DNA of 50,869 nt, from NCBI GenBank assembly GCA_019347675.1, contig JAHWKW010000012.1, positions 85,500 through 136,368 of the forward strand. The letters run 5' to 3'. This DNA is from Actinomycetota bacterium. GTDB lineage: Bacteria > Actinomycetota > Nitriliruptoria > Nitriliruptorales > JAHWKO01. Under the pieces are notes generated by a model that worked only from the letters and a program-made list of their open reading frames with translations, did not search any database and was not told the origin of the DNA. A program made the position numbers and the translations under genes. Shown in pieces: positions 31,709-50,869 of this stretch; position 1 is the stretch's first letter, and each line of letters opens with the position of its first letter.

Positions 31709-31963
31709 CGGCGTGTCGTTGCGCTGACGCCCTCGAGCCGATGCGATCGTGCACCCCGCACGCGACAGCCGACAGCATCGACATCGGACCTGTTCGCGAC
31801 GGCCAAGGCCTGTCCTCGCTCGGCCGCGTTGCGGGACCCACGGGAGAGGTCGGGCGATTCTGCTCCTGTCGCGCCGGCCGCCAGTGAAAGCGAACGCGGA
31901 TGGGCAGGTGGAAGCATCGCCGGGTCGCAGGTGTTGTCAAGCCCAGATGGGAGAGGAAGAACC

Positions 31964-32308
31964 GTGCCCACGGCCTTGACCGCCGAGACGTACCCGACGA
32001 TCGTCACAGAACCCACTGTCGTGTTGGACTGCACCGCATCCTGGTGTCATCCGTGCCACACCTTCGCCCCGGTGTTCGCGCACGTCGCGGGCAACAACCC
32101 CGATCTCGTCTTCGCGACGGTCGACGTCGACGCCGAGCCGGAGCTCAGCGCACGCTTCGACGTCCGCGCCGTGCCGACGATCGTCGCGCTGCGCGACGGG
32201 GTGGTGGTGTTCCGCCGTCCGGGCGTGCTGTCCCCGGATACGTTGCAGTCGCTCGTGGACCGTCTGCGTCAAGTGGTTCCGGCGCCAGGGGCCGGACGTA
32301 GGCTATGA
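31964..32308 (+). CDS. thioredoxin-family protein with WCHPC active site
   Basis: A 114-residue thioredoxin, start GTG at 31964 with GAGAGGAAGA just upstream. The redox motif is Trp27-Cys28-His29-Pro30-Cys31, and the cis-Pro loop is 'VRAVPTIVAL'. Normal thioredoxins have WCGPC; His at the third position raises the redox potential in DsbA-type motifs, so this may be a less reducing or more oxidising thioredoxin. No signal peptide, so it is cytoplasmic. It lies 40 bases before the SigR-like sigma factor gene and is plausibly part of the same redox system. Confidence 0.92.
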   Translation: MPTALTAETYPTIVTEPTVVLDCTASWCHPCHTFAPVFAHVAGNNPDLVFATVDVDAEPELSARFDVRAVPTIVALRDGVVVFRRPGVLSPDTLQSLVDRLRQVVPAPGAGRRL

Positions 32309-32348: not shown

Positions 32349-32948
32349 GTGACGGAACGAACCGGCCGCGAGCAACGTGCGCCCTCGCCGGCGGATGTCG
32401 CCACCGACGACGCGACCCGCAACGCGGCGTTCCGACGCTACGTCGAGCCGGAGCTCGAGGTGCTCCTGCGGGTCGCGCGCCGACTGACCGGTGACACGAG
32501 CGACGCCGAGGACATCGTCCAGGACACCCTCGTGCGCGCCTACCGCGCCCTGCACCGCTTCGACGGTCGGCACCCGCGCGCGTGGTTGCTGACGATCCTG
32601 CGCAACACCTGGAAGAACTCGCTGAGGAAGCGTCGACCGGTCCTCGTCGACGATGCTGACCCCGACCTCGCACGGACACCGGCACGTGGCGCAGACGGAC
32701 GGGGCGGGGCGGAGGAACACTTCATGCTCGGGATAGTCGACGCAGCGATCACTTCGGCACTCCGGTCGCTGTCCAGCAAGAAGCGTGACGTCGTGATGCT
32801 CGTCGACGTCGACGGGCTGAGCTACCAGCAGGCCGCTGACGTGCTCGACATCCCCGTCGGCACGGTCATGAGCCGCCTGCACCGTGCCCGTACCGAGCTG
32901 CGAACGCAGCTGCAGGACAACGGCTTCGTCCGGGCAGGTGGCGCATGA
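32349..32948 (+). CDS. SigR/SigH-like ECF RNA polymerase sigma factor
   Basis: A 199-residue group 4 sigma factor. Region 2 ('LLRVARRLTGDTSDAEDIVQDTLVRAYRALHRFDGRHPRAWLLTILRNTWKNSLRK', about residues 37-97) binds the core enzyme and -10; region 4 ('ALRSLSSKKRDVVMLVDVDGLSYQQAADVLDIPVGTVMSRLHRARTEL', about 138-187) binds the -35. The sequence is closest in style to the SigR/SigH/SigE group that controls thiol-oxidative stress in actinobacteria. The start GTG may be leaderless (see promoter at 32314). Its ATGA overlap with the anti-sigma gene couples the two. The linker of about 35 residues between regions is Asp/Gly/Arg-rich. Confidence 0.93.
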   Translation: MTERTGREQRAPSPADVATDDATRNAAFRRYVEPELEVLLRVARRLTGDTSDAEDIVQDTLVRAYRALHRFDGRHPRAWLLTILRNTWKNSLRKRRPVLVDDADPDLARTPARGADGRGGAEEHFMLGIVDAAITSALRSLSSKKRDVVMLVDVDGLSYQQAADVLDIPVGTVMSRLHRARTELRTQLQDNGFVRAGGA

Positions 32949-33214
32949 GGCGCTGGCTGCGACGTCGTCGCGACGAACTGCGCTGCAAGCAGGTCGCCCG
33001 CGTTCTGCAGAGCCACATCGACGGTGAGCTCGACCCGATGACGGCCGAGAAGGTCTCCGCGCACCTGGATGCGTGCCTGCGTTGTGGCATGGCCGCGTCC
33101 TCCTACCGGGACCTGAAGGCGCGCATCGCCAGGTTGAGCGAGCCGGTCAATGTCGACGCGGTCGAGCGGTTGCGTGCGTTCGTGGACGAGCTCACCGCCC
33201 ACGAAGCCGACTGA
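32945..33214 (+). CDS. RsrA-like zinc anti-sigma factor (ZAS family)
   Basis: An 89-residue protein whose ATG overlaps the sigma factor stop. It contains Cys14, His40, Cys44 and Cys47. The HxxxCxxC core is preceded by a Cys 26 residues upstream of the His, the same spacing as the zinc ligands Cys11/His37/Cys41/Cys44 of Streptomyces RsrA. In RsrA, oxidation forms a disulfide, releases zinc and frees the sigma factor. A basic N-terminus (Arg-rich) and a helical acidic C-terminus follow. It very likely holds the adjacent sigma factor inactive under reducing conditions. A partial copy occurs at 50310-50440. Confidence 0.92.
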   Translation: MRRWLRRRRDELRCKQVARVLQSHIDGELDPMTAEKVSAHLDACLRCGMAASSYRDLKARIARLSEPVNVDAVERLRAFVDELTAHEAD

Positions 33215-33267
33215 TCATCGTCGCTAACTAACGACTGCTGGCGGCACCCGGCGACGAAGGAGTGCCC

Positions 33268-34242
33268 GTGACCCACGACGAGGAGTCGTTCGAGGACTTC
33301 CGGCGGTCCTTCTATTACGGATCCCGCAGCGATCTCAACTTCAAGTTCCTCGCGAGGCTGTCGGACGCGGACGGGGCCGAGTTCCTGCGGCAGCTGCTCG
33401 AGACGCTCGGCGATGCGTTCGACACCGGCGAGTACGACAGTGTGCGCGAGCTCGTCTACAACTGGCAGGTGCGGGCCTACGCCGGAGAAGCGGAGTACAG
33501 CTACGACAGTGGACCGTTCGTCGCGGTGGGCCGCCGACTGCAGGACATGACGATCACGATCGTCGGGGCCGGAGGCGTGTTCGTCGAGGACGACGACCCC
33601 AACCCCGGCGAGAGCCAGGAGGACGCCGAGGCGCGCATCAGCCAGTATCTCCGCGAGCCGCCCACACTTTGCCGCATACCCGGCGACACGCCGGGGGATG
33701 AGATCCGCGTCCGTCATCCCGGCTACGACATCCGCGGCGCCCGCCGGGACATCAACGCCGTGTTTCCGATCGACGTGGTCGGGGACCTGGCCGCCGACGG
33801 CGTCGTCGGTGGTGTCGCCGCCACCCACTACGGGTTCGTGGGTGCCGCGTCCCAGCTGCAGCTGCGTAGCGAGGTCGCACCCCGGTGGGCGGATGAGCTG
33901 CGCGCCGACGAGGTCGACGTCTGCCTGCTCGTCGCCACCTGACCGGTGTGCCACGTGTCGGTCGGGCACGTCGCACGGGCCTTGGAGGAGGCGGGCATCC
34001 CGACCGTCGCGGTGTTCATCCGTGCGTTCCGCGATGTCGCGGAGGCGATGACGCTCCCCCGCGTGCTCGTCGCCCCACACCTGATGGGCCGGACGATCGG
34101 CCCGCCCGGGGCGGAACCGCGTCAACGCGAGGTCGTCACGTCAGCTCTCCGCCTCTTCGAGACCGCGACCGGCCCGGGGACGGTCGTCGACCTGCGACCT
34201 GCGACCGCGGCCTGGCACGCTGAGCGGTCGAGGCGGGAGTAG
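33268..34242 (+). CDS. selenoprotein B (GrdB/PrdB-like) family protein with in-frame UGA (Sec225)
   Basis: The frame is open from GTG 33268 to a stop at 34240, except for one TGA at 33940-33942. With TGA read as selenocysteine it gives 324 residues, with Sec225-Pro-Val-Cys228-His. In the GrdB/PrdB-like family the same place has Cys-Pro-Val-Cys-His or Sec, followed by '(S)VG(L/H)VARALEEAGIPTV' as here. Downstream, 'RVLVAPHLMGRTIGPPG' is also a family segment. The start is fixed by AAGGAG five bases upstream. A SECIS-like hairpin follows the TGA. The protein is cytoplasmic, probably a thiol/selenol oxidoreductase of unknown substrate, and sits in a sigma/anti-sigma redox operon. It could be mistaken for two genes or a nonsense mutant. 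Confidence 0.85.
33948..33976 (+). promoter_or_regulatory. SECIS-like hairpin for UGA recoding
   Basis: GTGC-C-ACGTG, a 9-base loop TCGGTCGGG, then CACGT-C-GCAC make a 10-layer stem with one C/C mismatch. The loop holds GGUC. Its first G is base 18 after the UGA; in E. coli fdhF the loop GGUCU starts at base 19. SelB of E. coli recognises these loop bases. This is the expected place and shape for a bacterial SECIS; fit to the SelB of this organism is inference. Confidence 0.75.
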
Positions 34243-50305: not shown

Positions 50306-50309
50306 CGTT

Positions 50310-50440
50310 GCGGCATGGCCGCGTCCTCCTACCGGGGCCTGAAGGCGCGTATCGCCAGGTTGAGCGAACCGGTCAATGTCGACGCGGTCGAGCGGTTGCG
50401 CGCGTTCGTGGACGAGCTCACCGCCCACGAAGCCGACTGA
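50310..50440 (+). pseudogene. truncated copy of the RsrA-like anti-sigma gene
   Basis: From 'CGTTG(C)GGCATGGCCGCG' on, the sequence matches 33080-33214 almost base for base, covering the last 43 or so residues (Arg-Cys-Gly-Met-Ala-Ala-Ser-Ser ... stop). The zinc ligands Cys14, His40 and Cys44 are missing because the 5' half was replaced by the esterase remnant. It cannot act as a ZAS anti-sigma factor. Confidence 0.9.
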
Positions 50441-50489
50441 TCATCGTCGCTAACGCCTGCTGCCGGCACCCGGCGACGAAGGAGTGCCC

Positions 50490-50869
50490 GTGACCCACGA
50501 CGAGGAGTCGTTCGAGGACTTCCGGCGGTCCTTCCACATCAACGCCGTGTTTCCGATCGACGTGGTCGGGGACCTGGCCGCCGACGGCGTCGTCGGTGGT
50601 GTCGCCGCCACCCACGACGGGTTCGTCGGTGCCGCGTCCCGGCTGCAGCTGCGTAACGAGGTCGCACCCCGGTGGGCGGATGAGCTGCGCGCCGACGAGG
50701 TCGACGTCTGCCTGCTCGTCGCCACCTGACCGGTGTGCCACATGTCGGTCGGGCACGTCGCACGGGCCTTGGAGGAGGCGGGCATCCCGACCGTCGCGGT
50801 GTTCATCCGTGCGTTCCGCGATGTCGCGGAGGCGATGACGCTCCCCCGCGTGCTCGTCGCACCACACCT
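50490..50869 (+). pseudogene. second copy of the UGA-containing selenoprotein gene, internally deleted, cut by the window edge
   Basis: Same start (GTG after AAGGAG) and same first 15 codons as the gene at 33268. An in-frame gap of 145 codons (435 bases) then joins Phe15 to a His and 'INAVFPIDVV'. The TGA is kept (50727-50729, residue 80) together with Pro-Val-Cys-His. In the hairpin behind it, G changes to A (CACATG for CACGTG), which costs one base pair and makes Val to Met. The remainder runs off the window. The deletion removes almost half of the protein, so I call it a probable pseudogene, but the frame is intact and it might still be made. Confidence 0.8.

Follow-up and report, generated by a model that had tools for sequence, protein, structure and literature searches.

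Marine metagenomes have been known since 2005 to encode selenoproteins that are related to the proline reductase subunit PrdB and carry a UxxC motif, with 42 sequences from the Sargasso Sea (PMC1088965), and the GOS survey contained 235 PrdB-like sequences of pfam07355 with the same motif (PMC2398784). The bacterial SECIS element has been described as a stem-loop just after the UGA with a G in a small apical loop, and deiodinase (Dio)-like selenoproteins are also already known in bacteria (PMC1088965). In the literature search, no paper mentioning both selenocysteine and Nitriliruptor was found. Here, a PrdB/GrdB-like gene from the Nitriliruptoria was analyzed in its genomic window, which denotes the full stretch of 50,869 nt. 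The gene, its putative decoding elements, and a second copy were located as follows:

33268..34242, plus strand: PrdB/GrdB-like selenoprotein gene, 324 residues including the predicted Sec225, stop codon TAG, assigned from profile matches and the homologue alignment
33257..33262, plus strand: putative ribosome-binding site AAGGAG, found by sequence inspection 5 nt before GTG 33268
33940..33942, plus strand: TGA for which decoding as selenocysteine is predicted (Sec225 of the motif U-P-V-C-H)
33949..33951, plus strand: Cys228, putative partner of Sec225 in the same motif
33953..33971, plus strand: bacterial SECIS apical stem-loop with a 7-bp stem (33953-33959/33965-33971) and the loop GGUCG (33960-33964), supported by covariation and synonymous-codon constraint
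50306..50869, plus strand: second, internally deleted copy, comprising the end of the anti-sigma gene, the selenoprotein start, a deletion of approximately codons 17-160, and the following codons up to the contig end

The frame from 33268 to 34242 was interrupted only by the TGA at 33940-33942 (codon 225) and ended with the TAG at 34240-34242. The first-pass annotation of this DNA had proposed a single frame crossing one TGA, which agreed with the GC content by codon position after the TGA (0.77/0.57/0.88), since this was coding-like in the selenoprotein frame only. It had also anticipated that standard gene callers would split the gene, and a mechanical caller indeed returned the two pieces 33262-33942 and 33955-34242. 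We favor GTG 33268 as the start codon, to which both the upstream AAGGAG and the homologue alignment point. The 99 open codons after the TGA were weak evidence by themselves. Among the ORFs of 150 or more codons ending in TGA, 31 of 102 were likewise followed by at least 99 open codons in this DNA of 69% GC. Therefore, the case for selenocysteine was based on conservation.

When the window's genome and 60 relatives were searched, near- or full-length homologues with approximately 50% identity turned up in 12 other genomes. Codon 225 was TGA in all 14 orthologues covering the site, or 15 of 15 aligned members when the window was counted, and all 15 continued after the TGA with P-[V/L]-C-H-x-S-V-G. 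The named carriers comprised Nitriliruptoraceae and Euzebyales/Euzebyaceae MAGs, one MAG named Actinophytocola, and one Caldilineaceae (Chloroflexota) MAG. Across the phylum, 63 of 396 scanned genomes gave matches, and 67 of the 74 matches contained an in-frame TGA. At codon 225, distant homologues had TGA, with a Cys codon in a minority, and the distant loci that were read had the Sec motifs UPVC, UPLC, UPFC, UPIC, and UPDC as well as the Cys forms CPVC and CPLC. The exchange of Sec and Cys at one position is a classical sign of a Sec site. The in-frame UGA was thus aligned with Sec or Cys in the homologues, as had been proposed for residue 225 and as in bacterial selenoprotein genes.

A sequencing error at 33940-33942 was ruled out, since the second copy of the gene also has the TGA. 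The deletion in this copy was in frame, and its hairpin had one broken pair. With a few bases missing in between, the copy apparently continues at positions 1-285 of locus L003, at the start of contig C3, and contigs C12 and C3 probably join there.

The hairpin after the UGA had been described in the first-pass annotation as having 10 layers, with GGUC in a loop 18 bases downstream. While its presence was supported by covariation, 10 layers were too many. The conserved stem has 7 bp, the loop reads GGUCG at a spacing of 17 nt from the UGA, and the lower stem of about 4 more pairs in the window was not conserved. The position right after the UGA and the G in the small apical loop correspond to a bacterial SECIS element. 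All stem cells were paired in an alignment of 16 sequences. Among 28 Sec homologues, 97.4% of the stem cells were paired, and two-sided changes occurred in six of the seven pairs, amounting to 24 cells compared with 5.6 in shuffles and 1 to 9 in slid controls. The synonymous-codon identity of the hairpin region (residues 226-238) was 0.70 versus 0.48 expected from the same amino acids at conserved residues elsewhere in the gene (0 of 20000 resamplings), and the gene-wide maximum of synonymous-codon conservation fell on the hairpin. The loop-closing pair was present in 28 of 28 Sec homologues versus two of four Cys homologues, the latter being a small sample. Val230 and His234 occur both in the window and in the Chloroflexota sequence, and jointly they replace a G-U stem pair with U-A; therefore, these amino-acid changes preserved the RNA stem. 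Free energy was rejected as proof of the hairpin because it was not discriminating, whereas covariation was. The energy in the window did not stand out from that of synonymous-codon shuffles (z -0.76), and it did not differ between Sec and Cys homologues (p 0.89, with only four Cys sequences). The Rfam scan of the window gave no match at the gathering threshold.

The genome was searched for selA, selB, selC (tRNA-Sec), and selD, as had been suggested, and all four were found. The tRNA-Sec on contig C10 scored 77.2 bits, above its cut-off, and was called by ARAGORN as SeC with the anticodon tca. SelA (498.7 bits) and SelB (251.2 bits) adjoined each other on contig C16, and SelD exceeded its cut-off at two loci on contigs C43 (L022) and C37 (L023), each with one in-frame TGA; the motif in the C43 copy is GAGUACK. 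A SelB-like fragment was seen at a contig edge (L014, C4:26-481) in addition to the full SelB; the extra SelD and this fragment could be real duplicates or belong to the 2.56% contamination. SelA was found in 12 of the 13 subfamily carriers (p 0.048) and in 16 of the 17 carriers of any homologue (Fisher p 0.0097), with p-values that ignore shared ancestry. It was not found in one carrier, G018, whose genome is 80% complete. In the relatives L068 and L069, the selenoprotein gene was followed by tRNA-Sec and selD-selA-selB, and in L076 it was convergent with selB-selA-selD. From these sequence data, decoding of the UGA at 33940 as Sec225 appears nearly certain, because the conserved TGA, the covarying hairpin, the genome's own Sec machinery, and the sel-gene neighbors in relatives all agree with the reading originally proposed.

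Three genes were identified upstream of the selenoprotein gene in the window:

31829..32308, plus strand: thioredoxin with the motif WCHPC, a candidate reductant; start uncertain and placed at 31964 by the caller
32349..32948, plus strand: ECF sigma factor, with an actinobacterial SigH-type model among the best matches, below its cut-off
32945..33214, plus strand: zf-HC2 anti-sigma factor with HX3CX2C; best NCBIfam match RsrA, at 25.6 bits against a cut-off of 62.5; 4-base overlap with the sigma gene

These genes follow one another in this order on one strand, and the selenoprotein gene begins after a further 53 bases. RsrA-type pairs are disulfide-stress sensors (PMC3961337, PMC4960319). The operon of thioredoxin, sigma, and anti-sigma genes was not seen at the other homologue loci examined. 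Consequently, the thioredoxin and stress-regulation steps proposed below derive solely from the window's genome. Other neighbors were present in relatives. Genes similar to deiodinases (Pfam T4_deiodinase, 32.4 bits), with their own in-frame TGA in the motif EFGSFTUPYC, were located directly or just upstream of the PrdB-like gene at seven loci (L067 5200-5910, L071, L074, L075 5214-5936, L076, L077, and L079), where both genes are cut in two by gene callers. Near PrdB-like genes at six loci of different branches (L065, L067, L070, L127, L132, and L138), a gene was observed for a flavoprotein resembling pyridine-nucleotide disulfide oxidoreductases (GGDCLWTGCVPSK in L067), and this flavoprotein is a possible reductant.

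Several other explanations were weighed against a selenoprotein with a function of its own. Without Sec decoding the frame stops at the TGA, and the truncated second copy indicates that gene decay occurs in this genome. The locus might thus encode a 224-residue N-terminal product or be a pseudogene decaying through a nonsense mutation. However, the TGA and the residues downstream are conserved across orders and in the Chloroflexota MAG, and the hairpin is under RNA-level constraint. These comparative data refuted true termination and decay, which we consider highly improbable. A changed code, in which UGA would stand for Trp or some other residue, would equally keep the frame open, but the three genes just upstream all stop at TGA, tRNA-Sec and SelA/B/D are present, and homologues without Sec at this position have Cys and not Trp. 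As far as sequence allows, this explanation was refuted as well, and its probability is negligible.

If the UGA is read as Sec, the product might still be the selenoprotein subunit of D-proline reductase or of glycine/sarcosine/betaine reductase, acting with PrdA or GrdE/GrdA partners. The protein scored 41.6 bits with Pfam GRDB (PF07355) against a gathering cut-off of 22, which places it in the superfamily, its best NCBIfam match was PrdB (TIGR04483, E 2.6e-32 over residues 84-309), and a grd operon exists on another contig of the genome. However, the PrdB match reached 112.2 bits against an equivalog cut-off of 300, and TIGR01918 (glycine/betaine/sarcosine reductase selenoprotein B) gave 49 bits against 65.45, at 324 versus about 430 residues. 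No PrdA/GrdE-type partner was found near the gene in the window, the only PF09338 (PrdA/GrdE-type) gene of the genome lies on contig C11 beside its own full-length GrdB, and PF09338 is absent from 16 of the 17 genomes carrying any homologue. The partner and cut-off tests largely refuted a role as reductase subunit, which is very unlikely. The earlier GrdB/PrdB-like label consequently holds for homology and not for membership. The protein is homologous to the clostridial GrdB/PrdB subunits but is not an orthologue of them, because the cut-offs were missed and the PF09338 partner is elsewhere or absent. Since no such partner accompanies the gene, D-proline or glycine is probably not the substrate. 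Alternatively, the protein might not be a general thiol oxidoreductase but work together with the deiodinase-like selenoprotein, either in reductive dehalogenation or in the reduction of peroxides. The gene lies downstream of the Dio-like gene in seven relatives, and NCBIfam names a GrdB-family complex fluoroacetate reductase (FarE model). This role seems unlikely, as the window's genome had no Dio-like match at E <= 1e-8 and several other carriers also have no such gene, so the association is not obligatory.

In a predicted structural model of the protein (window 33268-34239; pLDDT 88, pTM 0.87), residue 225 is located between a strand (218-223) and a helix (226-241). Redox residues occupy such a strand-to-helix position in many thiol redox sites. 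The PDB fold search with the model gave no match at E <= 0.001, and the matches listed at E <= 10, whose TM-scores were about 0.13-0.31, were not considered further. The PDB sequence search with the protein gave no match at E <= 1. Judging from the model, solved structures may not include the PrdB/GrdB-superfamily fold. Because no solved structure matched the fold at E <= 0.001, the catalysis was inferred from the motif.

In the proposed mechanism, the organism's own SelA, SelB, SelD, and tRNA-Sec would decode the UGA at 33940 as Sec225 under the direction of the SECIS hairpin at 33953-33971. The product, a member of the PrdB/GrdB superfamily, would be a soluble oxidoreductase of the dithiol type, with Sec225 predicted at the N-terminus of a helix following a strand. 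Sec225 would attack or reduce the substrate, a selenenyl-sulfide would form with Cys228 as the resolving thiol, and thioredoxin would re-reduce this bond. In the window's genome, the gene is probably co-induced with the thioredoxin, sigma, and anti-sigma genes under thiol stress. The reading as a whole, that of a true selenoprotein made by the organism's own Sec system, directed by a SECIS element, and acting as a soluble thioredoxin-coupled dithiol-type oxidoreductase, is considered very likely. Taken separately, the function as a thioredoxin-coupled selenol/thiol oxidoreductase, with the substrate left unspecified, is proposed with modest confidence.

Ordinary gene calling halves this gene, and profile naming would label the pieces as subunits of amino-acid-fermentation reductases. 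The comparative data indicate one intact selenoenzyme, and the in-frame UGA is shared by most actinobacterial relatives. Across the 61 genomes covered by the search, almost every carrier was without the partner subunit of proline and glycine reductase, which defines a testable family of stand-alone selenoenzymes and suggests that environmental selenoprotein surveys may have counted proteins as "proline reductase" under a wrong name. We give an even chance to the broader proposal that PrdB-like selenoproteins without a PrdA/GrdE subunit are widespread stand-alone Sec oxidoreductases in Actinomycetota, with the Nitriliruptoria branch tied to a Dio-like selenoprotein or to a thiol-stress operon of thioredoxin, ECF sigma, and anti-sigma genes. 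If the stand-alone reading is true, "proline reductase" is a misnomer for most members of the family.

Compared with the known systems, the C-terminal part containing the Sec site is homologous to GrdB/GrdF/GrdH, and homology to clostridial PrdB extends over residues 84-309, whereas the locus differs from the latter in its score, the missing PrdA, and the N-terminus. The N-terminal sequence FRRSFYYG is specific to the subfamily and belongs to an extra helical part (F..FR.SFYYG). Similarity to the UGSC family was weak and local around the Sec site, below both cut-offs (NF041046, 25.8 bits against 125; PF24696, 21.4 bits), and the motif is UPVC, not U-G-S-C. The genome's own GrdB-type protein has 442 aa, 433.8 bits to TIGR01918, and the motif UGTGTRC, in contrast to 324 aa and UPVCH here. 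It belongs to a grd operon on the minus strand of contig C11 (L063 4700-9911) comprising a PF09338-type subunit, the GrdB-type gene, component C beta, thioredoxin, and GrdA. Both the full-length GrdB-type gene and GrdA (FVUTAAGAMDL) have in-frame TGAs, and the closest models of the operon include sarcosine GrdG/GrdF. The marine PrdB-like UxxC selenoproteins, compared by their published description, share with this locus the pfam07355 superfamily, the Sec-x-x-Cys motif, a bacterial SECIS element, and the occurrence of both Sec and Cys forms. The survey sequences were predicted from metagenome reads and named proline reductase, while the gene described here belongs to a Nitriliruptoria subfamily placed in its genome context. 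PrdB-like UxxC selenoproteins are therefore already known as a kind, and what is new here is a little-studied actinobacterial branch with its N-terminal subfamily signature, its genome context, and its missing partner.
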